Below, piece by piece: positions 515-59,888 of a stretch of DNA of 64,000 bases (position 1 is its first letter; each line of letters begins with the position of its first letter). Location of the stretch: the NCBI RefSeq assembly GCF_051622035.1, contig NC_135365.1:2594501-2658500 (forward strand). The letters run 5' to 3'. The notes below the pieces were generated by a model, which was not told where the DNA came from, did not search any database, and worked only from the letters and a program-made list of their open reading frames with translations. The translations under genes and the position numbers were made by a program. This DNA is from Arctopsyche grandis. Taxonomy: Eukaryota > Arthropoda > Insecta > Trichoptera > Hydropsychidae.

Positions 515-985
515 GCCATAGCCAGCAGTATGGCTCGGTTTTTGCGTTTATGTTTAGAACCGAGAGATTACTGGATTCGATCGCGTGCTAATCTTTAATA
601 CTGCTGGTTAGATTTGATTATTTGTGACACCAGGTCGATCGTTTCTTAATAGAGATTGCCAATTTATCTGATTTTCATTGTTGAAACGGTTCCTCAAAAT
701 AACCAAAAACCATCCTACTTGCTGGCACAAATATCTGAATTTGATTCATGTACAATATGTTAAAATGTATGTACAAGTCTAATGTTTCAATGGATTGCTT
801 AATTAATTAATTGTCAATTTCGTGTTCTTCAGCCTCTCGAAATACTATAATAATAAATTTTTATGTAATAAAAATGCTGCAATGTTTGTAATTAATTGTC
901 TAGGAAGGCGCATTGGGGTCTACCTGTCAGGCCTTCCTGGCCCATATATGTAAAAAGTAAAAATAAAATAAAATGAAACATTGAG
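515..985 (+). repeat. tRNA-derived SINE, type 1 head
   Basis: The head AGCCAGCAGTATGGCTCGG carries a degenerate A box and a 'GGATTCGATCGC' B-box-like site. The body contains GCCAATTTATCTGATTTTCA and TTGAAACGGTTCC. The tail has the AGGAAGGCGCATTGGGG / GGCCTTCCT stem-loop and an AT-rich run. Other copies in this window share the same order of head, body and tail. Confidence 0.7.
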
Positions 986-1996
986 GCATAAACGGGGCTC
1001 AAACCCATATATGTATATGTAAATCATAATGCCGAAAGTTTAAACGATAATGAAGAATGTTAATAATATTTTAATTTGAAGATTATCTCTTGTTTCATGA
1101 CATTGAGTAGTTTTTTTGTTACATAAAAAGTTAATAATATAATATATTCCGATTGAACAGTGACCTTTAATGCATGTTTTTATTCAACTTTAATTTGAAT
1201 ATGGTATTTACCTTTTTTACTACGGTGAAAATTAGAGGGAAATGGTTGATCTTTTTATCGTTGATATAACCAGTGGCGGCTCGTCCATACGCACTGCGGT
1301 ACTGCAGCACCCCCAAGGAAATTGAGAAAAATTTAACATTATTATATACATAAATGTATGTATGTATATTATATGAAAATATCAATATTATTAATATTAT
1401 TAAGCCTGCCCGCACACCGATACATCCAATAATGATCATACATCGCTATACTAATATCAGACAGTGAGGCATCGTTTATGATTTTGTGCAGTACGGTTTT
1501 CGATGGAATATGCCGAGTGTGCGAAGGAGGGGCGCGGGGGCAGCTAGAAGCTTGGTCCGTACTGCACTCCCAACAGTGCTATACACATTTCTTGTTGCGT
1601 TCGTGTGCGCGCCGCGCCACTTTTCGTCATTTCTTCTGCACCTTTTGTCTTTCCTTCTACACCTCTTACACTTTCTACGTTTCTACACGTCACCTTAAGT
1701 ATTTAAGATGGTATCAAAAATAAGAGAAGCTGAGCCAATGTTTTCAAGAACTTAAATATTCTTCCGAAAATACTGATAAAACAATAACAGATTCTACCAA
1801 TTTACTGAATACAATTTTTTTATTTTAGTCAGAACTTTTTCACAAGTTAATGCTGCATGTAGAAATTATTTATAACCGAATGCAATCTATCATAGTAATA
1901 TCGATGCATTTTCAATTAAAGAAAACTTAAAAAGTTTTACTAATGTCATTATACAAATATGAGATTCCAAAAATATGTGATGCATATATTATATGC

Positions 1997-2164: not shown

Positions 2165-3487
2165 ATAAATATTACTGATAATAAATAATATTAATAATAA
2201 ATAATAATAATAATAAATAATAATAATAATAATAATTATAATAAATAAATAATAATAAATAAGTCTAATAATAATAAATAATAATAATTTTATGTCTATT
2301 CAAGGCGGTCGGTGTAGCAGTTCCATCCATCGAACATACAATGAAGAATGCAAATGAGAAGATGCAGCAGCAAGAAGACAATTAGGCGATAAAAATATAC
2401 GAAGACGTAGAGAGGCCGCTCTCATCCTGAGAATGGCTTCAAAATGAGGCACATGCCCTTCTACAAACATTTGCGACGCGCTACAGCTCCTAGGTAACCC
2501 GAAAAGAGCACGGTAACAGTTGTTGTATTGTACCTTTATCTTCCTCATCGTCTCCCGCTTGTATCTGGTCCATAATTCACCAGTATAGAGGCTAGTACAA
2601 AAGGACATAAATAATTGTCTCTTAACCTCTACACTGGAGTGGAAAAATCGTCTAGCCAGCATATTTGCCCTTACACAAATGGCTCTTCTTTGTCTTTCGA
2701 TGTCACGGTCATCAGATAGATCCTCCGTCAGCAAGTGTCCCAGATACTTGACTTCCCTAACAGTTTCAAGATTACGCCCATCTAAAATAATGTTGGGGAC
2801 GAAATGAGGACCTCGACCGTATCGGAAAATCAGTACCATGGATTTACTCGTATTATACCGCATATTATGTTCTGCAGCATAACTCGAGCAAACTTCCAGG
2901 AGGCGATTCAGAGCTGACGGAGAAGGCGCCAAGATCACCATGTCATCCGCATAGCTGATGTGGTTACTGCATATTCCTCCTATGTGGCAACCAACTCCAG
3001 TCTGTCGAAGGCGATGTGAAAGTTCATCCATGTAAAGGTTGAATAAGCCAGGAGACATTGACCCACCCTGTCTAACCCCGCACTTCAAAGAAGCGGGATC
3101 AGAGTATGAATTCCCCCAGCGTACATGGCTGAACTGATTCCGGTGCCAGGATGCTAAAAACCTCACGATTTGACTTGGAGCTCCCCTTTTTAACAGTTTG
3201 GACCAAAGTAGATCATGATCCACTCGATCGAAGGCCTTGGATAAGTCTAGAAAACAGGCGTATACGGAAGTTTTTCGCGATGTATAAAAATCCACTACCT
3301 GTTTTAAAGTGTAGATGGCCATGTCCGTCGACGAGTGCTTCTTGAATCCAAACTGCTCATCAGCTGACAAAAGGTAGCCACTTAATCTGCAACTCAATAT
3401 CTTCTCTAGAATTTTAGATAAAATGGTGGCTAGAGCAATAGGACGATAGCTGTCAATGACTGAAGCATCAAGCTTTGATGACTTGAT
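2165..3487 (-). pseudogene. 5'-truncated LINE: reverse transcriptase domain and C-terminus
   Basis: A long minus-strand frame runs from about 3487 to 2300 without a stop and encodes a non-LTR reverse transcriptase. It begins inside the palm domain (SYRPIALATILSKILEKIL), continues through FGFKKHSS, the LDLSKAFDRVDHDLL block, GVRQGGSMSPGLFNLYMDEL and the catalytic YADD box (YADDMVIL), then a C-terminal thumb region with KYLGHLL. The expected upstream endonuclease and ORF1 are missing, so this is a typical 5'-truncated copy. The 3' end runs into a long (AAT)n tract at about 2165-2299, as expected for target-primed reverse transcription with a microsatellite-like tail. It lies inside the hAT element 1271-4169. 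A short related fragment with the same tail is at 20340-20512. The clade (CR1/Jockey-like) is inferred from the C-terminal style only. Confidence 0.88.
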
Positions 3488-3556
3488 ATATGTACTATAT
3501 GTACATATATGTACTATCGCACATATTATATATATTAAGGATATAAAAGAAATATA

Positions 3557-3950
3557 TACTTTTTCTATTCAATTACAAGCTGTGAAATTATTTAATAAAG
3601 AAAATTTTGAAAAGTACTGAAAGAAAATGCCAATGGAAGATCTACTACTAACCGTTGAATCATATCCAATGTTAGATAAAGAAAAACTTCAAACTGAATT
3701 AGAAGTGTTTTACTCGAGGAACGAAATGCATAGTATTAATGATTTATTATTATTTTTAAAACTTATTTTTGCAATCAATTCATGCAAAGTTCGTGTGCAA
3801 ATAACAAAACTTATTCAAATTCTGCTTACAACTTCAACTACCTCTGAGCCAGAATGGTGTTTTTCATCAATAAATAGAATAAAGACATACATATATAAGA
3901 AACATAATGGTTCAGGAAAGATTGACGGCTTCGTCTATGCTGTCAATTGA
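3557..3950 (+). pseudogene. hAT transposase C-terminal (dimerisation) fragment
   Basis: The frame at 3627-3950 encodes a peptide with the signature block LLTTSTTSEPEWCFSSINRI, which corresponds to the hAT dimerisation motif ('TxxSExxFSxxxRIKT') of TTF-type/ZBED-like transposases. Only the last ~110 residues are open and the rest of the transposase is absent. It sits close to the 3' terminus of the hAT 1271-4169, as expected. A near-identical copy, frame-broken near its start, is at 40391-40687. No host function is implied. Confidence 0.8.
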
Positions 3951-12824: not shown

Positions 12825-13305
12825 TGTTTATTTTTATTTATTTTATTTTATTTTTATTTTTACATAGATATATACCAGGAAGGCTTGACAGGAAGACCCC
12901 AATGCGCCTTCCTGGACAATTAATGACAAACAATGCAGCATTTTACTATTACATAAATCACTGTATTTCCAGAAGTTGAAGAACACGAAATAACAATTAA
13001 TTAATTAATTAATTACAGAATTAATCCACTGAGACATCTATGAATTTAGATCTTGTATATAATTTTTACAAATTATAAACACAATAAATACAGAAGATTT
13101 GTAACAGCAGGAAAGATGATTTCTTGCCAATTTTGAGGAACCGTTTCAACAATGATTAGATAAAATTGGCAAACTCTGATAAGAAACGATCGATTTGGAG
13201 TCAGAAATACTCCCAAATCTAACCAGCAGTATGGCGAATCGAATCCACTGATCACTTGGTGCTAAACATACACGCTACCATTAAGCCATACTGATGACCA
13301 ATGTT
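12825..13305 (-). repeat. tRNA-derived SINE, type 1, minus strand
   Basis: Reading the minus strand: a head with 'AGCCATACTGC'-like and GATTCGATTC boxes, the GTTTGCCAATTTTATCTAAT body and GAAACGGTTCC, then CCAGGAAGGCGCATTGGGGT with a complementary CCTTCCTGG, followed by an AT-rich (TAAAATA)n tail at 12830-12870. Confidence 0.65.
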
Positions 13306-14290: not shown

Positions 14291-14761
14291 ATGTAGTGGA
14301 ATAGACTAGTAGTAAGCATATAATGCTTTGAACAAAGTGGTCACGGATTCAAATCCCACTGGTTTCTGCTTGCCAGACCTTGGATATGTATCTCCAGGTC
14401 GATCAAGGTTTGCCATTTTATCTGATTTTCATTGAAACGGTTCCAACAAATTGGCAACCTTACCCATTTTCTCGCAAATATCGAGTTTTCAGAAATCTCG
14501 AATTTCGCTGAATTGTATAAAATGCTGCAAATTTACACATTTGACCATAAATGTCCTTGTGGATGTTAATTGATATGTATTTATTGAACTTCACTGAATT
14601 GTTTAAAAAAAATGTTGTAAATTTACAAATTTGGCGATAGATTTCTCTGTGAATGTTAATTGATATGTTTTTACTTTTTATAATATTAATAATACTTGTA
14701 TCAAATGTACAATCTTTCTGGCTAGGAAGGCGCATTGGGGTTACCTGTTAGGCCTTCCTGG

Positions 14762-15473
14762 CAGAGTTTGACCAGAAACGAATGACCTTCTAGGAGGGGG
14801 GGGGGGGGGTGTATTTTATTAAAAAAATGAGTGTATATGAATTTTAACTTGGCATTTATTTTTATCAATACAATTTATCTATATATGTATATATATTAAA
14901 ATTGAATGTCTGTTTGTTTCGTATAGGCTCCTAAACCACTCAACCGATTACGATGGAACTTTCAGGATTTGTTGTATGCATATCCGGGAAGCTTGCTGTG
15001 AAAAAAAAACGGGAAAAAACCTCTTAATAATAATATTCGCAATTATGATTTTAACGACGCGGAAGTATGAAGCACCATTGTGCAGTCAAGGGAATGTGTT
15101 CGTTGGTAACCACGTCACCAGTTGGTTTATGACGACATGGCGTTGAAGAGACGTTAGTAGATTTAGTTAGCTTCAACTATTACTTGAAACGCGAACGGGA
15201 ACGGGAATTGCATGCCTTATTCTGGCATTGCAACACATGACGGGTTCAGCCAGTAGTAAAATAATTTTTAAGGATTAACGAGTTTTAAAAATATCTTTCA
15301 AATCGACTTGTTTATACCTAACAGTGTTCTAAAGAATTTAAATATCCATTTTTGTTGGTTTAGTATTTTAATTAAAATTCATAATAATACATTCAACGAC
15401 GTGGATAGTCCCGTTCGAATTTAGGGGGGTGGCTGACCACTCCAGCCCCCTCGCCCCCAAAATGACGCCCCTG
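14762..15473. mobile_element. hAT-type nonautonomous element inserted in SINE hairpin
   Basis: The 712-bp insertion is bounded by an exact 8-bp duplication, CTTCCTGG (14754-14761 and 15474-15481), which is SINE sequence. Ends CAGAGTTTGA and GACGCCCCTG are only weakly inverse (CAG...CTG), so the hAT assignment rests on the duplication length. A Helitron-like element is nested at 14878-15257. Confidence 0.65.
14878..15257 (+). mobile_element. Helitron-like element nested in hAT-type insertion
   Basis: Starts TCTATATATG, followed by the conserved 5' block GTCTGTTTGTTTCG, TCCTAAACCACTCAACCGAT and GATGGAACTTTCA, typical of insect nonautonomous Helitrons. The 3' side reads GACGGGTTCAGCCAGTAGT and is less certain. 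No target duplication, as expected. Confidence 0.6.
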
Positions 15474-16031: not shown

Positions 16032-16893
16032 TCTAATATATAATTTGTATGTAACCTTCGTTCGTTGGATCGTAAATCCGTGACGTCATCGAACAAATAT
16101 GTAATTCGATTTTTTTCGATTCAAAGGATTCGAAGTCCCCGGGGCCAAAGGCGCCGAGGGCGAAGCCCTAGGGGGTGCAGCCACGTGGGCGCAGGCGCCG
16201 GATTGTGGTATACATATAATTTCATATACATAATTTCATATAGAGTTTTAAGAAAACATGATATATTTTTACCAATTAGGGCTAAATCAAACGTGCTCAT
16301 GAACTCCCCCCTCTCGAGAGCTGTTCGACTCCTTAACTTACTGGCACAATACTTGGACCTATTCGATGCCAGTTATGTTGAGTTGGTGGAACACATCCTA
16401 AATAGCACGATATAAATTTTTCAATCTTATTTCTTTGTTTTTATTTTGTGTACATATTTTTTACTTGATTTTTATTATTTTTTTATGATGTTTTTTTTTT
16501 ATTTATGATTTTTATTATTTTCTTATGTTTTTTTTTTATTTATGATTTTTATTATTTTTTTTATGATGTTTTTTTTGTAATTTTTATGATTTTTATTATT
16601 TGTATTAAAATCACATTGACGCTTTGGGGCAACCTGTCAAGTCTCTGTGGTATTGATTTTTTAAAATAAAATAAAATAAAATAAAATATAATTTTTTATA
16701 AGAGACTTACTATATATGTTTGTTTGTTCGTGACAGTCAATTTAATAAAAAATAAACAAATGAGTATTCAAATACATTTATATAAAATAAAACTATTCAA
16801 ATGAACTTAATAAAATGTTAACTATTAGATTAGTCATGTTTAAGCGGTTTATATTACAAAAAATACCGAGCGAAGCCGTGTAATACAGTTAGT
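16032..16893 (+). mobile_element. Composite Helitron-like element carrying LINE 3' end (copy 1)
   Basis: Begins TCTAATATATAATTTGTATG and ends GAAGCCGTGTAATACAGTTAGT-like. It contains, in order, TTCGTTGGATCGTAAATCCG, GTGACGTCATCGAACAAAT, a GC-rich minisatellite stub (about 16130-16200), a LINE C-terminal fragment (16225-16415), a T-rich LINE 3' region, and the Helitron 3' half from about 16680. The same order is seen at 26796-28447. Confidence 0.6.
16225..16415 (+). pseudogene. LINE ORF2 C-terminal fragment
   Basis: The frame reads RVLRKHDIFLPIRAKSNVLM, then NSPLSRAVRLLN and EHILNSTI before a stop at 16413. It aligns by eye with the C-terminus of the LINE fragment at 27085-27924 (IAPIPRAIRLLNEIVAA). 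Downstream, TTGAC-GCTTTGGGGCAACCT-GTCAA (16616-16640) is a degenerate version of that LINE's 3' stem-loop. The rest of the LINE is absent. Confidence 0.6.
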
Positions 16894-21850: not shown

Positions 21851-22974
21851 TTAATATCTACCCCACAAGTGACGGTCAGCAAAGCAGCAGAACAAAGTGA
21901 AGCAAAGCTATGTAATTAGTTGAAACAAAGTTCTACGTATCTCATTTTAAATTTATCATCGTTCCATAATTCAATCTGCAGTTTTCGAATATATCTAACA
22001 ATAACATAAATTTAACGCTTTTATGATAAAAAATAAATCTTGGTTTTTTTAACCAAGTAATTTAAAAAATATATAAACTGCGTTTTGGAACGTGACAACA
22101 TGTACATACGTCAATGAGAATTAAAATGTAAATATACATATGTATGTACATATGTATGAATAATATATGAATCCAATTTTGGTTTTATTACTTAAAACTT
22201 GCAAAACAATTTTTTATAACGATGATGAGAAATGAGTAAAAAATTGTTATTTGAATAAAAATAGAGTAAAAAAGACTATATGTGGGGACATATTTTCGCT
22301 CTATTCAAACTGCACATTTGTTAGTACCTCGGAGGGTAATGAAAAGGTTAACCCTTTGAGTGCTGACGTCTTTTCTGTTCACGCTGAAAATTTCGCCAAC
22401 ATTTCCAACTAGAATTATTTAGAAATCCAAAAGAAAGCAGGTATAAAAATTGTAGCTAATCCAAACAAACTCTCTGGGACTTCTGTGTATTACTTCAAAA
22501 ACAATTTTCATACCTGCTTTCTATTGGATTTCTAAATAATTCTAGTTGGAAATGGAAATGAAAAGACGTCAGTATTGAAAGATTAAAAATGATAAAAAGG
22601 CAGGCTATTAGAATTAATGTGCATATAAGGTTTTTTATGAAAATATTGTTGGTTATACCATCGATAAAAACCATGTGAAATGCATAAGAGGTATGTAAAA
22701 AGATCAATCATTTTCCTCTATTTTTCACCGTAGTAAAAAAGGTAAATACTATGTATATTCAAATTAAAATTGAATAAAAACATGAATTAAAGGTCACCTT
22801 TAAATCGGAATATATTATATTATCAACTTTTTATGTAAACAAAAAAACTACTCAATGTCTTGAAACAAGAGATAATCTTCAAATCAAAGTATTATTAACA
22901 TTATCGTTTAAACTTTCAGCATTATGATTTTTATATATGGGTTTTAGCACCGTTTAAGTCACAAAGTTTCATTT

Positions 22975-23420
22975 TATTTTATTTTTATTTTTTACATACA
23001 TACTAGATGTAAAAAGACCTGACAGGTAGACCCCAATGCGCCTTCCTAGACAATTAATTACAAACATTGCAGCATTTTTATTACATACATATTTATTATT
23101 ATAGTATTTCGAGAGGCTGAAGAACACGCAATTTATAACGAATTAATTAATCAATCCATTGAAACATTAGACTTGTATATAAATACATTTTTACATATTG
23201 TACATAAATCAAATTCAGATATTTGGGCAAGCAGGTAGGATGGTTTTTGGCAATTTTGAGGAACCGTTTCAACAATGAAAATTAGATAAACAATCTAACC
23301 AGCAGTATTAAAGATTAGCACGGATCGAATCCAGTAATCTCTCGGTTCTAAACATAAACGCAAAAACCGAGCCATACTGCTGGCTATGGCTATGTTCTAT
23401 GTCAATAGATTGTATTGAGG
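22975..23420 (-). repeat. tRNA-derived SINE, type 1, minus strand
   Basis: Inverse of the AGCCAGCAGTATGGCTCGG head at about 23375-23395, of the GAAACGGTTCC body at about 23264, and of the AGGAAGGCGCATTGGGGTCT hairpin at about 23025-23050. The hairpin's outer arm is mutated. Confidence 0.65.
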
Positions 23421-25405: not shown

Positions 25406-25929
25406 AGCATTTGCATATTGTTTCTCTACCCGGCCGTTTTGGTTGGTACATATGCATATTTTGAGAGTCAAATTTTATTATAATGGAAAATGTTTTTCAT
25501 CGTTTGCTATTTTTTTACAAACCTCTTCTTACTTTTTTACTTTATCTATGTACATAGTAATTTTAAATATAATATTAAATTTTTACACGTTTTTGCTTAC
25601 ATAACACTTTTTTACAGCACAAATCACAATTATTGTTTATCACTATAGCACAAAATGAAAATCCTTGAAAGAAAAACATCGCGATTTGCCTGCGCGACCT
25701 AGAGTTGCTTAACTGGAAAATATCCACGGTTACGTGTCTCATTTTATTGCAATATATTCAAGTTAATGTAACAATAAATTGTCCTTCGTGCAAAAAAAAT
25801 GAAATGTGTATGTATGTATGTTTGTATGTATACGAATCATGCGATTGGTTTAAACCTTTTGGAATATAAACGTATCCAAGTTACCTAATAAAGGCTACAC
25901 GGTCGTCAAGTATGAAAACTGTTACTTTA
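25406..25929. other. No gene recognised
   Basis: AT-rich with short frames only. Nothing repeated elsewhere in the window was noticed here apart from TATG-type simple repeats near 25810. Confidence 0.35.
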
Positions 25930-26375
25930 TTTATTATTTTTTTACATAGGAATATTTTAACATACCAGGAAGGCCTAACAGGTAAACCCCAATGCGCCTT
26001 CCTGGCCAATTACAAACAATGCAGCATTTTTATTACACAAGTCGCTGAATTACGAGACTGAAAACTCACTGAAGACACTGAAAATATAAATTTTATTGTA
26101 CATTAATCATACTCAAATAGTGGTGATATAGTAGGTAGGAGGGTTCTTAGCCAATTGAATCGGGAACCATTTCAACAATGAAATCAGAAAAATTGGCAAA
26201 CTCTGATAGGAAACTATCGACCTGGAGTCACAGATATCCAAGTCTGAACAGCAGCACTACATATATAATATAATCAGATAAATTCTTTTCAATCGAGGTC
26301 AGCTCATGGGATCAAACCCGGCGCCTCTCGGTGCTAGGCAGTAGCTTAACGACCGAACTATGCTGCTGGTTAATT
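25930..26375 (-). repeat. tRNA-derived SINE, type 1, minus strand, good copy
   Basis: On the minus strand: CAGCAGCATAGTTCGGTCGT, then the B-box GGTTTGATCCC, a GATTGAAAAGAAT spacer, the GGTCGATAGTTTCC and GAGTTTGCCAATTTTTCTGA body, TTGAAATGGTTCC, and the hairpin GCCAGGAAGGCGCATTGGGG / GGCCTTCCTGG with the perfect 10-bp stem. Confidence 0.75.
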
Positions 26376-26907
26376 TAATTATTTATGACTTTTTACCAGT
26401 AGCGGCTCGCGAGAATTCATAGTGGGGGGGCTGCAGAGATTAATCAGACCGTAGTGGTTCGTTAACCAAATCGGTGATCGAATGAAAACAAAAATAGGAT
26501 AAATATGTACTAAACTGGGAGGTCTGCAGCCCGCAGTCTACGTGGACGACAAAAATAGCATGCATTTGTACTGTACTGGGAGAACCAATGTTACATATAT
26601 GCATACATATATACAAAGTCTCTTTCGAAGTTATATATTAGATTATTTATTGCATAATTTAATTGGCATAACCGATTCCCGATTTATGTTTCAGTTCCGA
26701 TTCCGAATAAATATTACTATTCATATTGTACATTTATTTTAAATCATGTATCGATCCGAAAGCACCCGTTGAAATTTCCACGGGCATAACACTAGTCTAA
26801 TATACAATTTGGATTTTGTATGTATGTATGTATCCTTCGTTCGTAGAAATCCGTGACGTCATCGAACAAATAATTTGGTTTTTTCCGATTCAAAGGATTC
26901 GAAGTTC

Positions 26908-27080
26908 CCGGGGGCGTAAGTGCCAAGGGCGAATCCCTAGGGGACGCAGACGCCGGGGGCGGAGCCTTGGGGGACGAAGCCCAGAGGCTCCGTCCCCTAG
27001 GGGGCGCAGACGTTGGGGGCGGAGCCCTAGGGGGCACAGACGCCGAGGGTGGAGCCCTAGGGGGCGCAGACGCCGGGGGC
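26908..27080 (+). repeat. 30-bp GC-rich minisatellite
   Basis: The unit CTAGGGGGCGCAGACGCCGG + GGGCGGAGCC starts at 26938, 26998, 27028 and 27058, with a diverged unit between 26968 and 26997. It is far more GC-rich than any neighbour. Being a multiple of three, it makes Arg/Gly/Pro-rich frames on both strands that should not be read as proteins. A short relative lies at 16130-16200. Confidence 0.85.
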
Positions 27081-27084
27081 GTAC

Positions 27085-27924
27085 ATATAAGGAGAGAGGC
27101 AAGCCTCTCTCCTTCAAGCAGATATTAACGCTGTTTTAGAGTTCAGTTCCAGTTTAGGGCTTGAACTGAATACTAGTAAATGTGCCATTATGAGTTATGG
27201 ACGTGCGAATTCGCTCTATTGTCATGGATATTCCATTGGATCCGTATTTTTGAAGCGTGTGAAATCTATGGTCGACTTGGGTATCACTTTTGATCCTCAA
27301 TTCACCTTCCACAACCACATCAAGACAGTCGCTGACGTTTCCTTTCGTCGACTTGGATTTGTCTTGAGATATGCTAGGTTATTCTCCAACCCCATGTCTT
27401 CTCGCTTGCTTTTCAACTCGCTTGTTAGAAGTAAGCTAGAGTATAATGCGATTGTGTGGAATCCGCATGAAGCAAACTACTCTCTTATTATTGAAAAAGT
27501 GCAAAAAGCATTTCTTCGTTTTCTATATAAGAAAGAGTTTGGGTATTACCCATATCTCTATCCTACTCCTTTCCTTTTGGGCACGCTTGGGTATAATTCC
27601 CTTGAATTTCGGAGAAACTTCTCGTTAATTCGTTTCGTTCTCCAGCTACTGCGTGGTAATACGTCATGCCCGTTGTTGCTGGAACAGTTGGGACTTTATG
27701 TACCTAGTAATTATGTGCGTGGTAGATATCATAATTTAATGGTTGTACCTCCTGCTCGCACAGTTCTTTTTCGAATAGCTCCTATACCTAGAGCTATTCG
27801 ACTTCTCAATGAAATCGTTGCTGCCGTCCCTGAATGCGATATTTTCCACCTCGCTGAGCGTAGATTATCGGATATTATTTTAACATATTTATCTGGTAAC
27901 CTGCACTCATCATTACTTTCTTAA
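27085..27924 (+). pseudogene. LINE reverse transcriptase, C-terminal third
   Basis: The frame is open from about 27091 to the stop at 27922. It starts in the RT region after the catalytic box (LLQADINAVLEF, then LNTSKCAIMSYGR), passes the thumb block SMVDLGITFDPQFTFHNHI and RSKLEYNAIVWNP, and ends with RVLFRIAP-type IPRAIRLLNEIV. This is the usual order of Jockey/CR1-like ORF2 C-termini. The YxDD-containing palm, endonuclease and ORF1 are missing because the fusion with the minisatellite replaces them. The 3' UTR keeps the stem-loop 28181-28221 and an A-rich tail, so the retroelement's 3' terminus is complete. It is not expressed as a full enzyme. Confidence 0.85.
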
Positions 27925-28180
27925 TTTGAATGTGATGTAAGAGTGGAATCTTAATCTACTCTCTTCCAATTGGGCCTCGCTGTGATTTTTTATTCATATT
28001 TTGTTTTATTTATTTTACTTGTTCTTTCTCCTTTGTACATTTTTATGTACTATTTTAATTACATTATTATTTTCCTTTTGTTACTTTTTTATTATTATTT
28101 TATTTTACCATGTTTTCTGCTTTTTAATTTTTCTGTTTTTTACTAATTTTACTTGTATTTATATCTTTGTTAAATGTAGG

Positions 28181-28221
28181 CCATTGTGGCGCATTGGGGT
28201 CTTCCTGTAATGCCACAATGG
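28181..28221 (+). other. LINE 3' stem-loop
   Basis: CCATTGTGGC (28181-28190) pairs perfectly with GCCACAATGG (28212-28221) around a 21-nt loop beginning GCATTGGGGTCTTCCTGT. The loop is almost the same as that of the SINE hairpins, but the stem bases differ in a compensated manner. Likely the recognition element for the LINE reverse transcriptase. Confidence 0.75.
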
Positions 28222-28447
28222 TCCAAAAATATTAATAAATAATAAATAATATTTTTTTATAAGAGACTTAATATATGTATATGTTTGTTTGTTCGTGATA
28301 GTAAATTTAAAAAAAAAACAAATGAGTAGTCAAATAAATTTATATAAAATAAAACTATTCAAATAAATTTTATAAAATGTTTACTATTAGTCATATTTAA
28401 GCAGTTTATATTACAAATACCGAGTGAAGCTGGGTAATACAGCTAGT

Positions 28448-32865: not shown

Positions 32866-33439
32866 TTAATTGCAAAAAAAGTATTATTAGCGGAAGACCC
32901 CCTTGAAAGTGATCTTGAACTTTATTTTGATTAATAATTGTGAAGTCGTCAAAGCGATAAGCGTGCATAATTCCAACTCTTTACGTATTGTTTGATAAAC
33001 GTGTCCGTTATTTACAGTATTATCAAACGACAAATTGCCACAATTAATTTAACAATAAAATATATTATACGTCACATAAAAAATGTGTAAATTAATCCAT
33101 TTATATTGCACAATTGTTTTTTTTTTTGTTGATTTGTTGAGATTGAAGCAAGTGCACTGAAAATTAATCGAGTAAGCTTTTTTAATTTTATGCGTTGATA
33201 AATTGTATGAAATATTAAATATGTATAATACAAAATTTAAAGATTGTAAATTGTATATATATATACATTTAATATTATTTGTTATCTCGTGGGTCAAACC
33301 TCGTCAGCTCAAACGTGTTCAAGAAACAATCAATCAGCATATTCTGAATGACATCAATGCATCGGTTTGACGCACAAATCAATTGTAAACATCGATAGCA
33401 GCAAAACGTTATAATGTTTTGATATCATTTTTTAAGCTA
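32866..33439. other. No gene recognised
   Basis: AT-rich sequence with short frames only. No complete repeat was identified. An exact GTTTGATAA ... TTATCAAAC inverted pair lies near 32990-33026. Confidence 0.35.
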
Positions 33440-33752
33440 ACTAGTGGTTTTACCCGGCTTCGCTCGGTATTTGTAATTTAAACCGCTTAAACATGACTAA
33501 TCGTATAGTAAACATTTTATTCAATTTATTTTATATACATTTATTTGAATATTCATTTGTTTTTTTTTTTATTAAATTGACTGTCACGAACAAAAAAATA
33601 TATACTAAGTCTCTTTCAAAATTATATGTATACCAGAATCCGGCGCCCCCCGGGACCGGAGCCGAATTTATCTGTCGTCATGGAAACTTTGACTTGTTTT
33701 CGTTTCCCACCCAACTATAGTCACAAAGTCTCTTTCGAAATTATATATTAGA
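33440..33752 (-). mobile_element. Helitron-like element, reverse orientation
   Basis: On the minus strand it begins TCTAATATATAATTTCGAAA and ends CGAAGCCGGGTAAAACCACT then AGT. The interior contains AATAAACAAATG-type sequence shared with 10718-10932 and 46491-46899, plus a GC-rich piece (about 33638-33670) not in the others. The flanks show no duplication. Confidence 0.65.
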
Positions 33753-34202
33753 TATGTGATTCTTATGCACGCTTAATATTTTTTTCAATAATGAAATATT
33801 TTTTGAGATAAAATGACGGCTTTCGATTGGCAGATTCTACCTTAGGACTTCTCAAATTTTTTAAATCGCCAGCTAAATAGCGTAATAGTTTAGTTTCACG
33901 ACCAATGAAGAGATATGTAAATATATAAACAACAATTAAATAATTTTCATTGATGAAAATATTCAATATTATGAATGTAAACCTTGGTTTTGAATAATTA
34001 TCAAATCTTGTTGTTATTTCAGACAGGTTGCAACTTATGCCATCTTCAGATTATAAATGTAATTTATTTATTTATTTTTACATATGCACATATGTATATG
34101 CTAACCACTAGCCTCATACTGTATATTGTGCTACAGTACTCAATCTATTCAGTGGATTGTGTATTAGTAAACTATAGAAAGTGCAAAATAGAGCAATGCG
34201 TG

Positions 34203-34372
34203 CATTGATGTATAATACACTAGATCCGCCCTCACGCTTTATACTGGTCTCCCTTTTGGCGCATGCAAAATACATGGCGCATGCAAAATACATGGCGCAT
34301 GCACAGTTTCTCTCAGTAGGTAAGTAGGTACCGCTGCGTCGTAGGGATAAAACCTTTTTTTCCCCATATTAT
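34203..34372 (+). mobile_element. CATTGATGTATAATACAC MITE, right end lost
   Basis: Matches the element at 43154-43392 from its left terminus through GTACCGCTGCGTCGTAGGGA. A 22-bp piece, CATGGCGCATGCAAAATA, is duplicated. The right inverted repeat is missing, where a SINE begins. Confidence 0.65.
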
Positions 34373-34374
34373 GC

Positions 34375-34720
34375 TTTTGAGCAGAGTGGTCACGGTTCGA
34401 TTCCGACTAGTAGCGGTTGGCCAGACGTTTGTTTGTGCTCCAGGTCGATGGTTTCCTTTCAGAGTTTGCTAATTTTTCTGATTTTCATTGAAACGGTTCC
34501 TGTAATTGGCATCTTCATTCCAATCTCTCTTGCAAATCCCAATTTATTTAGCGTCTTGAGGCTCGCCAATTTGATGTCAATTTTGATGTCACTGTGGATG
34601 ATGTTTGTATGAATTCGCATTGTATTAATTGTATTATTGTATTGTATCTGTATTAGTACACTCGTCGCTTTGGAGCGATCTGTAAAGGCGAGTGTACACA
34701 CATGTTCGATTGCAATAAAA
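34375..34720 (+). repeat. SINE, type 2 head, with a divergent 3' stem-loop
   Basis: Head remnant TTTTGAGCAGAGTGGTCACG with B box GGTTCGATTCC, body TTTGCTAATTTTTCTGATT and TTGAAACGGTTCC, then a 3' stem-loop. In the stem-loop GTACACTCG (34656-34664) pairs with CGAGTGTAC (34689-34697) around a GCTTTGGAGCGATCTGT loop. It ends in AATAAAATAAATAAATA. Confidence 0.7.
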
Positions 34721-34724
34721 TAAA

Positions 34725-34790
34725 TAAATATATACCAGGAAGGCCTAACCCAAGTAAACCCAATGCGCTTTCCTGGCCAATTATAAGTAT
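34725..34790 (-). repeat. SINE tail fragment, minus strand
   Basis: Inverse of the GCCAGGAAAGCGCATTGGG hairpin with one arm mutated, abutting the preceding SINE tail to tail. Confidence 0.5.
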
Positions 34791-38865: not shown

Positions 38866-39390
38866 AATGCCTTGTCTGAATCCGGACGTTGGCGACCACC
38901 TCGTCGATTATTTGAAGATATCCGCATCGGTGTTTAGCGGCTCGGAACATATCTTCGGCGGTCATATCGGTCCACATGCGCATTTTCGAAGCCAAGATAA
39001 CTTTTTCCTGCCAATCCATCCAATCCTTGTCTGAACCCAAACTGCTCTCTGCTAATCGCTTCTTCACACCGTGAGTAAATTCTGCCCTGTATTATCCTTA
39101 GTAGGATCTTCAATGTGTGACTCATTAGGCTAATTATTCTGAAGTCGCTACACGTCCTCGCGTTACTCTTTTTTGGCAACGGGATAAATATGGATTGTAA
39201 CCAATCGCTAGGTAGTTCGCCTGATAAATATATTTTATTGAAGAGTTTTGTGAGATCTTCTATGTTATCGTCGTCCAATAACCTGAGGAATTCGGCAGGA
39301 ATCAGATCCGGTCCAGTAGCTTTCCGACTCTTTGCTAGTTTTATAGCATGTTCCACTTCGGATTTCAATATATATGGTCCCGTTTAATAT
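38866..39390 (-). pseudogene. LINE reverse transcriptase with internal deletion
   Basis: Reading minus from 39368: an RT N-terminal palm (KSRKATGPDLIPAEFL, LPSDWLQSIFIPLPKK, FRIISLMSHTLKILLRII, ISREQFGFRQGLD). It then jumps directly, with a frame change near 39030, to a C-terminal block (WMDWQEKVILASKMRMW, TAEDMFRAAKHRCGY, VVANVR) ending in a stop at 38864-38866. The catalytic YxDD region and thumb are missing between the two. The C-terminal style (W...LR.W.....LF..A......ANVR) is that of insect endonuclease-reverse transcriptases. It is a dead, internally deleted copy. Confidence 0.75.
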
Positions 39391-58500: not shown

Positions 58501-59888
58501 ACCTCCTTCGCCGTACATACAATGATAGTTGCTGTCTCAAGGTTTGTCTTTTCTAGAGTATCTATCCTAGACTCTAGTTTATGTATCTTCTGTGTAAAAT
58601 CATTTATTAAGGAATGGGCCATCTCCAAAGAGTTCTTCAAATCAGAAACATCAGATTTCAGGGATTTGATGTCATCTGACATTGATCTGAGAGGGGCTAA
58701 GTCCATCTAAATATCGAATATAAATTAAGAAAACCGAGTTTCCATAGGCCGGGAACGGTGTCATCATAAACTAACTGCCTATAAAAGTCACAAAATAATG
58801 TAACAAGCTGCAGATATCTGTTTATGTATATATAGCCAGCAGCATAGCTCGGTCGTTAAGCTTCTGCTTAGCGTCGAGAAGGCGCTGGGTTTGATCCCAG
58901 GGCCGGGTCTCGAATGAAAAAATGAATTTTTCTGGATTTGTGACTTCAGATTGATCGTTTCCTATCAGAGTTTGCCAATTTTCTCTGATTTCATTGTTGA
59001 AACGGTTCCCGGAAAAAATTGGCTAAAATCCCTCCTATACGATATGTCACCTATAATGTGTTATTAATTAATGTGCAATAAATAAGTTTGTGTACAAATT
59101 GATAATGTCTCATTGATTTGCGAGTTTTTCAGTGTCTCGTAATTCAGTGATTTATATAAAAAATGCTGCATTGTAATTGTAATTTATAATTGGCCAGGAA
59201 GGCGCATTGGGGTTTACCTGTAAGGCCTTCCTGGTATATATGTAAAAAATAAATAAATATAATATAATTAGTATATATACTCGGGTGATGTTAAGCTGTT
59301 CTAAAAGTAGCGTTTAAATGTATTATTATATACCATATTTGCATCTACTACGACATATTCGGCGTGGCTTCCTTGTTGATGCACTGGAACTACACCCCAA
59401 ACTCGACTCCCGACAGGAAGTTTATTATATTCTCCCAATCCTTTCGAGACGATTTTACCACAGAAGTCCCGTCCCAAAGTGAGCGGAAATTCAACATTAT
59501 CAATGTGACGCATCAAGTTCAAAGCGGTTGCACCATATCCACCTAAAGCAAATCACAATGTTAATTATATCGTTGATGTTTTAAAATGTAATCAATGCGG
59601 TTGTGATGTACTCTCACCGATCATTGCAACGTCTATTGGATTTACTGAAGCTGCCTCGACCTTTATGAGGACTTGGTTGGGGTGTGCGATGTGAGGGATT
59701 CTGGTTTGTGGCGAAAGTTGGAGTTCGCTGAGGTCTCCGTATGAGTGGATTTGCCACGCTGACATTTTGTCTCGAGCATTCGCCAAGGGCAGAGCGGCTG
59801 CTGATGATGATTGTCGAGGGGTGGAGCAGCCCACTTGTCGGGCCGCCGCCCTCAGGGTCGTCGCCCATCTCGAAGCCCCCATAACCAT
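55581..59888 (-). CDS. RTN4IP1: RTN4IP1-like mitochondrial oxidoreductase, six exons
   Basis: Exons on minus: 59618-59888, 59334-59542, 57919-58116, 57731-57843, 57388-57655, 55581-55697; all borders GT/AG and all phases compatible; 391 residues (human protein about 396). Residues 1-40 are Arg/Ala/Ser-rich without acidic residues, fitting a mitochondrial presequence. The GroES-like part includes EAASVNPIDVAMIGGYGATA, EFPLTLGRDFCG and QGSHAEYVVVD. The Rossmann part has LVLGASGGVGNAAVQ for NAD(P)H, then RFDVIVDCAGLG, VTFTTPVLKNMDNLG and the C-terminal HLRGKVVINLG. The family (medium-chain reductases; NADPH oxidoreductase linked to coenzyme Q synthesis and complex I assembly) is established for vertebrate RTN4IP1. 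Function here is by homology. The start has a good AACAATGG context. AATAAA (minus) at 55518-55523 lies about 60 bases past the stop. Introns 2 and 5 hold SINEs and DNA elements. Confidence 0.93.
55922..56262 (+). repeat. SINE, type 2 head
   Basis: TAGTGGTTAGCATATAATGC then B box GGCTTCAAATCCC, GTCTCCAGGTCGACCGTTTC, GAGTTTACCAATTTATGTGA and TTGAAACGGTTCC. The hairpin tail is cut off by the next SINE. Confidence 0.7.
56290..56640 (+). repeat. SINE, type 2 head, second tandem copy
   Basis: Begins GGATCTACTTAGCAGAATAA and TAGTGGTTGGCATATAATGC, with B box GGGTTCAAATCCC. The body is as in the previous copy. Tail ends in AATAATATAATACTTATAAT. Confidence 0.7.
56641..57140 (+). repeat. SINE, type 1 head, plus a further body/tail fragment
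   Basis: AGCCAGCAGCATAGCTCGGT with A box TAGCTCGGTCGTTAAGC and B box GGGTTCGATCCCATG, the closest to a functional tRNA-like promoter here. The body is followed at about 56940 by another partial body and a damaged hairpin (57104-57136). Confidence 0.72.
58290..58706 (-). pseudogene. LINE ORF1-like coiled-coil fragment in RTN4IP1 intron 2
   Basis: The minus frame from 58706 starts with heptad-patterned MSDDIKSLKSDVSDLKNSLE ... INDFTQKIHKLESRIDTLEK, a coiled coil as in non-LTR ORF1/gag-like proteins. Then an abrupt change to GC-rich LRRSGLAELQRLADVWGWC, which looks like another repeat. No RNA-binding knuckle is seen. Not part of RTN4IP1, as it lies between exons 2 and 3. Confidence 0.45.
58836..59255 (+). 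repeat. Full-length tRNA-derived SINE, type 1
   Basis: Head AGCCAGCAGCATAGCTCGGT ... GGGTTTGATCCCAGG, body GAGTTTGCCAATTTTCTCTG and TTGAAACGGTTCCC, tail hairpin CCAGGAAGGC (59194-59203) / GCCTTCCTGG (59225-59234) with a GCATTGGGGTTTACCTGT loop, ending in AAAAAATAAATAAATA. About 420 bp; the best reference copy. It lies in RTN4IP1 intron 2, antisense to the gene. Confidence 0.8.

Follow-up and report, generated by a model that had tools for sequence, protein, structure and literature searches.

The window analysed here, a 64-kb stretch of DNA from Arctopsyche grandis, contains the ends of two LINE families and copies of several SINEs. On the plus strand, a 5′-truncated copy of the family that we call LINE1 (27091..27924) encodes the C-terminal 277 aa of ORF2 and is ~95% identical to young genomic copies. 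It is followed by a U-rich 3′ UTR (27925..28179, +), a hairpin (28180..28222, +) and an A-rich tail (28223..28250, +), which in young copies is made of AAAT repeats of varying length. Another LINE family, LINE2, is represented by its C-terminal end at 16285..16415 (+), with a 3′ hairpin at 16610..16651 (+). The SINEs comprise SINE_A at 58836..59270 (+), which has a tRNA-like head with A and B boxes, and a second copy at 25915..26372 (-); SINE_B copies at 520..990 (+), 12840..13300 (-) and 22960..23385 (-); SINE_C at 34330..34735 (+), with the B box GGTTCGATTCC and a central domain; and a further SINE at 14310..14762 (+; start approximate), with a central domain and an A/B-type tail. The SINE flanks are of low complexity. 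Scanning the window with Rfam returned no family and with ARAGORN no tRNA. Two reverse-transcriptase fragments, at 2300-3568 (-) and 38934-39383 (-), match Pfam RVT_1 (the second below cut-off); they are 28-30% identical to LINE1 and belong to other LINE lineages.

Searching the window with a covariance model (R1, filters off) detected 10 copies of one kind of hairpin, ~41-44 nt long, with scores from 61 down to 28 bits; the next match, at 17.8 bits, was the reverse strand of a true hairpin. R1 was built with 7 of these 10 hairpins, whose R1 matches are therefore true by construction. The LINE1 hairpin (R1 match 28181-28221) consists of the stem GCCATTGTGGC/GCCACAATGGT and the loop GCATTGGGGTCTTCCTGTAAT, and the LINE2 hairpin (R1 match 16611-16650) of ATCACATTGAC/GTCTCTGTGGT, with 9/11 pairs, around GCTTTGGGGCAACCTGTCAA. 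SINE_A carries GCCAGGAAGGC/GCCTTCCTGGT at 59193..59235 (+; R1 match 59194-59234), and its second copy has a hairpin at 25964..26006 (-; R1 match 25965-26005). Those of the three SINE_B copies are located at 899..941 (+; R1 match 900-940; CTAGGAAGGC, one G-U), 12874..12916 (-; R1 match 12875-12915) and 23008..23050 (-; R1 match 23009-23049; outer 3′ arm decayed). The further SINE ends in a hairpin at 14721-14762 (+; R1 match 14722-14761) and SINE_C in one at 34656-34697 (+; R1 match 34657-34696), the tail of the latter adjoining a degenerate hairpin of SINE_A/B type at 34734..34777 (-; R1 match 34735-34776). The predicted folding energies of the six intact window hairpins ranged from -20.8 to -26.5 kcal/mol. 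A loop pattern allowing up to 3 mismatches gave 7 matches in the window (6 exact and 1 unrelated) versus a mean of 0.22 in shuffled sequence.

Six of the window hairpins (at about 900, 12875, 14722, 16611, 23009 and 34735) add to those named in the original prediction, which had proposed that the LINE and SINE tails share a stem-loop with a covarying stem and a conserved loop. The LINE stem it described, CCATTGTGGC (28181-28190) paired with GCCACAATGG (28212-28221) around a 21-nt loop (28191-28211), was correct in both letters and positions, as were the stem and loop of the SINE hairpin at 59194-59234 and the four compensated stem positions between LINE and SINE. A second SINE hairpin, placed at 25969-26007, is real but lies at 25965-26005 on the minus strand. 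The third SINE, at 34656-34697, indeed has a different stem, although this is made of 11 bp rather than the proposed 9 (GTACACTCGTC/GGCGAGTGTAC, one G-U, 20-nt loop).

The structure common to these hairpins comprises an outer stem of 10-11 bp, an internal loop (5′ strand GCWU, 3′ strand UNA) and an inner helix (RGR/YCU) with an invariant U-G as its closing pair. RNAalifold returned the same structure, including the invariant U-G pair, with the alignment as its sole input. Covariation was measured in 16 intact representatives, one or two per family or variant, picked with their stems known. In this set 97.8% of 224 stem cells were paired, against 69.4% after shuffling, and 69 cells were changed on both sides, against 23.5; neither value was reached in 500 shuffles (0/500 each). 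The covariation score was 0.843, compared with a maximum of 0.276 in controls with slid partners. The remaining two of the five measures were less extreme: 11 of the 14 pairs had at least one two-sided change (a count reached in 8/500 shuffles), and 28 pair types were found versus 24.6 in shuffled alignments (32/500 shuffles reaching 28). Stem covariation at the level of families was therefore well above both the shuffled and the slid controls, as the original prediction had anticipated. The shuffle statistics ignore kinship among families and, since the compensated changes fall in four main stem types, independent events are far fewer than cells. Covariation was also present in the SINE representatives alone. 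The inner helix covaries as well, being G-C in 8/16 and A-U in 7/16 representatives, and of 11 invariant positions 10 lie within the 21 positions of the LINE1 loop. A group formed by the LINE family LINEY and SINE_C, SINE_D and SINE_E displayed further compensated changes, from C-G to U-A at pair 2 and from U-A or U-G to C-G at pair 10. A wider set of 57 model matches in 43 loci (48 distinct rows), whose alignment was fitted to the structure, gave a similar but noisier picture: 93.5% of cells were paired and 177 two-sided cells were counted versus 64.7, and the 10 pairs with two-sided change compared with 9.1 in shuffles, 98/500 of which reached this number.

Changes among individual copies followed another pattern. 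Across 25 SINE copies in which no more than 4 pairs had changed, one-sided changes numbered 29 (10 keeping a G-U), and the only two-sided change was broken. Among 28 distinct SINE_A/B copies with the exact loop, 10 stems were unchanged and 51 changes were one-sided (15 keeping a G-U); 3 changes were two-sided, one of them paired, in a copy that had lost its 3′ arm. The one-sided changes in SINE_A/B copies are read as neutral decay of dead copies. Because dead copies decay uncompensated, the evidence for covariation lies between families and not between copies; the expectation that stem variants are compensated holds for the former, whereas compensation is absent within SINE_A/B copies.

Four related LINE families (LINE1, LINE2, LINEX and LINEY) and five SINE types (A-E) carry the hairpin at their 3′ ends, just upstream of the A-rich tail. 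A protein search with LINE1 returned 140 matches with scores, almost all of which share 94-95% identity with the window copy (27091-28250); by our own count 18/140 had the same 989-aa open frame, and in two full copies a 366-aa ORF1 frame overlapped ORF2. LINE1 ORF2 contains an APE-type endonuclease and a reverse transcriptase (Pfam Exo_endo_phos, 8.6e-7; RVT_1, 1.6e-27), with no match to RNase H; in a set of 14 PDB sequences it matches human L1 ORF2p and R2 proteins. The window LINE1 fragment alone gave no PDB match and only a sub-threshold match to RVT_1. All 29 distinct young LINE1 ends (33 rows) have the hairpin followed by TCCAAAACTATT and then by 8-40 nt of AAAT-like repeat, and their flanks differ; A-rich repeats 3′ of the hairpin were seen by eye in the other families. 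In a search with a LINEX protein query, 88/94 matches were 57-58% identical to the query and corresponded to LINE2, and 46/94 had 960-aa frames (own count). Three fetched LINE2 3′ ends matched the window LINE2 copy (16.3-16.7 kb). The two fixed mismatches of the LINE2 stem (9/11 pairs) occur in young, abundant copies. The LINE2 ORF2 that was read is 38% identical to that of LINE1 over 946 aa. Partial ORF2 sequence puts the identity of LINEX (loci L066 and L110-L112) at 42% with LINE1 and 57% with LINE2, and that of LINEY (L070 and L103), whose matches are 70-95% alike, at 46% with LINE1. The hairpin is thus kept across LINEs with ORF2 identities from 38% (LINE1/LINE2) to 57% (LINE2/LINEX). LINE1b (L022), which is related to LINE1 and has a shorter loop, was counted as a variant; LINEY2 (L063) was also counted as a variant because it is 80% identical to LINEY in DNA, so that the LINE families number four and not five. 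A LINE less closely related to the others, L006 (28-35% aa identity), carries an AAAT-type tail, and no hairpin of its own was detected at E≤3; its end (minus strand) directly abuts TTAGTACACTCGTC, a sequence similar to the 5′ stem arm of SINE_C/D/E.

The LINE1 and LINE2 fragments (26825-28440 and 16046-16890) occupy the same spot in two copies of one repeat. The 33-kb copy of this repeat (33430-33760, -) ends in GCGAAGCCGGGTAA...CTAGT, and the repeat may be Helitron-like; this third copy has no LINE at the shared spot (TACATATAATTTTGAAAGAGACTT). By eye, ATATAATTT flanks the LINE2 copy at 16 kb on both sides as a candidate target-site duplication, the related repeat at 33.6 kb being assumed to be the empty site. 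A young LINE1 copy (L041) also ends next to TTTCGAAAGAGACTT. The shared spot in the repeat copies, together with this position of L041, suggests a weak target preference. GC-rich tandem units (GGAGCCCTAGGGGGCGCAGACGCC-like) are found at 26935-27081, directly 5′ of the LINE1 fragment.

A central domain is common to all five SINE types. A and B boxes with up to 2 mismatches each were found in SINE_A, B, D and E, spaced by 42-43 nt in 5/6 copies scanned, a pattern that 122/2000 random stretches also matched. SINE_C contains a B box with no matching A box, and a 13-bp acceptor-like stem forms in the predicted fold of the SINE_D head. The stem CCAGGAAGGC is found in SINE_A and SINE_B, and GTACACTCGTC, or a sequence near it, in SINE_C, D and E; rarer A/B-like SINEs were found at L096, L100 and 14.7 kb of the window. 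The alignment of SINE_A with SINE_B ran between central domain and tail (69% over 380 nt) and did not extend, in that search, into their first 100 nt. In head and body, SINE_B and SINE_D show 81% identity over 270 nt, yet they end in different hairpins, which argues for an exchange of tails between SINEs and so, probably, of partners.

A LINE-only alignment (A4) was discarded because its 3′ arm was misaligned, and a model made of seven SINE hairpins was used instead. Searched in 91.9 kb, this SINE-only model detected LINE1 (46.9 and 36.7 bits), LINE1b (28.0), LINE2 (31.9), LINEX (40.6) and LINEY (46.5), with best E-values per family of 8e-10 to 8e-5 (LINE1, LINE1b, LINE2, LINEX, LINEY and LINEY2). 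Each of the 37 matches at E≤0.1 coincided with a hairpin of a LINE or SINE; two unexpected ones, in L070, were SINE_B- and SINE_D-type copies, and the weakest (L120, E=0.058) was a partial hairpin in a LINEY stretch. We also analysed 16 stretches selected solely for lying ~180-560 nt 3′ of diverged LINEY protein matches. Ten of them contained the hairpin at E<0.001, always on the coding strand, and one gave only a partial match (E=0.015), also on the coding strand; the other 5 had no hairpin match at E≤1. The hairpin was present in 6/6 LINE2 and LINEX 3′ ends (three each) fetched blind after the protein search, a seventh, degenerate end (L113) having been fetched with its loop match already known. 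Together with the covariation between families, the matches of the SINE-only model in every LINE family support the proposed link between SINEs and LINEs through a shared, covarying RNA hairpin.

Genome-wide (475.7 Mb, 189 contigs), the exact loop GCATTGGGGTNTNCCTGT was found 4456 times and the young LINE1 loop GCATTAGGTTCTTCCTGT 1739 times, reversed controls giving 0 in both cases. Looser loop patterns, in which no stem letters were fixed except the one or two preceding the loop, gave 5932 matches versus 31 in the control when a non-G then a C stood 5′ of the loop, and 2561 versus 117 with a non-C at this place; all these match sets may partially overlap and are not additive. Near-identical SINE or LINEY matches were crowded on one contig (G000:C2, ~0.9-3.4 Mb and 30.8-34.4 Mb), hinting at amplified segments. 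For 72 of the 77 distinct loops with enough flank, the sequence 5′ of the hairpin identified the carrier as a LINE or a SINE, and 5 loops were left unassigned; 7/72 assignments rest on weak scores (<100 bits), and about ten are self-matches since the references came from the same loci. The hairpins of short loci L075-L094, at position 103, were omitted from this assignment (<120 nt upstream, the script minimum). The loops assigned in this set were all found in a single orientation, after LINE or SINE 3′ sequence. The loop motif is therefore not scattered at random positions, the outcome that would have spoken against the original prediction. A 24-place hairpin pattern gave no matches in IMG/VR viral contigs.

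These data are best explained by a hairpin that serves a group of stringent-type non-LTR retrotransposons as 3′ recognition element and that tRNA-headed SINEs carry so that those LINEs copy them; we give this reading a probability of about 85%. An RNA element so close to the 3′ end, with the strong fold predicted for the six intact window copies, could also act in RNA 3′-end formation, stability or export and be retained by SINEs as a transcript stabiliser. We consider such a role unlikely. The SINE heads contain Pol III-type boxes, whereas LINE RNA is presumably made by Pol II, so a shared copying enzyme is the simpler explanation of a shared 3′ element; moreover, the near-fixed letters of the loop suggest a sequence-specific reader. 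The perfect inversion of the stem in many copies would likewise fit an inverted repeat at the DNA level, a small DNA transposon or cruciform present in LINEs and SINEs by chance, but this is very improbable: 72/77 loops follow LINE or SINE 3′ sequence in one orientation, the loop is asymmetric and conserved, and the inner helix covaries.

With the hairpin read as a recognition element, the question of partners can be addressed. LINEs with long intact frames and the same hairpin, which the original prediction had called for, were found in LINE1 and LINE2. In place of the single LINE partner envisaged, several related families form a group in which the stem differs from one family to the next. 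SINE_C/D/E match LINEY closely in both stem and loop, whereas SINE_A/B share only the loop of LINE1 and not its stem. LINE1 is favoured as the partner of SINE_A/B because the 18 loop letters GCATTGGGGTCTTCCTGT are identical in SINE_B and older LINE1; the abundance of the young LINE1 loop in the genome (1739 matches) points the same way. The SINE_A/B tail may instead derive from a further LINE family with the CCAGGAAGGC stem, extinct or unsampled, LINE1 then not being the partner. This derivation, compatible with a recognition hairpin read by the reverse transcriptase, is a serious possibility to which we give somewhat less than even odds. It would account for the far closer stem and loop match between SINE_C/D/E and LINEY. 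It also agrees with a limited search that targeted LINEs through the CCAGGAAGGC stem and an upstream T-run: none of its 68 matches was recognisably LINE, and nearly all had SINE_A/B flanks, as judged from 33 letters each. More doubtfully, the SINE_A/B stem could lack any counterpart among the LINEs of this genome and have been re-invented by compensated change while the loop read by the enzyme stayed fixed. If so, the stem would be free space in which a parasite diverges from its helper while keeping recognition, for example by losing homology to small-RNA silencing directed against the helper.

Under the recognition reading, ORF2 would bind the hairpin by reading the sequence of its fixed internal loop and inner helix, the outer stem being needed mainly in duplex form; target-primed reverse transcription would then start in the downstream AAAT-like repeat, and a SINE could change partner by swapping its tail. 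That the reverse transcriptase would read the hairpin is drawn from published work on zebrafish and eel LINEs. In cell assays of the zebrafish L2-clade elements ZfL2-1 and ZfL2-2, exchange of the stem was tolerated (at about half the rate in ZfL2-1), exchange of the loop was not, and an unpaired stem failed; in eel UnaL2, altered stem sequences were harmful (PMC4176376). The tail-binding region of ZfL2-2, between the endonuclease and the reverse transcriptase, has conserved Pro324, Trp325 and Trp344 (PMC4176376). P, W and W with spacing 0, +1, +20 are found between the same two domains of ORF2 in LINE1 (PPWFGSKLITDVRAKWLSHRRWK) and LINE2 (PPWFTKEIINLLKSKYQTHKLWK), a likeness to ZfL2 by spacing alone (PMC4176376); the positions of Arg334 and Glu341 of ZfL2-2 were matched in neither. 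From the ZfL2 stem and loop results and these P/W/W residues we infer that ORF2 may read the internal loop and the inner helix. What ORF2 reads becomes directly testable in this system, and the pairs in which a LINE mobilises a SINE become predictable.

Tails of SINEs and LINEs with a 3′ stem-loop, a variable stem and a conserved loop have been described for zebrafish, eel and monocots (PMC4176376, PMC3747384). As in UnaL2/UnaSINE and ZfL2-1/ZfL2-2, the stem-loop found here lies near terminal repeats; unlike in the UnaL2 and ZfL2 elements presented in PMC4176376, the loop is different and its apical part forms an internal loop with a covarying inner helix. Monocot LINEs and SINEs share a ~50-nt 3′ end with a variable, compensated stem and conserved loop letters (PMC3747384). 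LINE and SINE are linked here as are the monocot L1-clade LINEs with ZmSINE2/3 and sorghum SINEs, although the monocot case concerns the L1 clade in plants and differs in loop and flank in the account given by PMC3747384. Insect SINEs with LINE-like tails are represented by HaSE1/HaSE3-HaRTE1.1 in Helicoverpa (PMC3272025) and PxSE5-PxLINE1 in Plutella (PMC8010984), in which some SINEs combine a tRNA-type head and a conserved central domain, and one tail occurs on SINEs with different heads; the word "stem-loop" is absent from the main texts of both papers. The HaSE1 partner is described as an RTE-type element with TGA repeats, unlike the LINEs studied here (PMC3272025). A literature search, with Repbase, insect repeat libraries and most subscription papers outside its range, found no description of this hairpin and these families. 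The arrangement is known, and the loop and families reported here are a new, clear case of it. They provide a natural counterpart of the stem- and loop-swap experiment on zebrafish LINEs, in which the loop has been held constant and the stem varied among five SINE types and four LINE families, of which two are apparently young.
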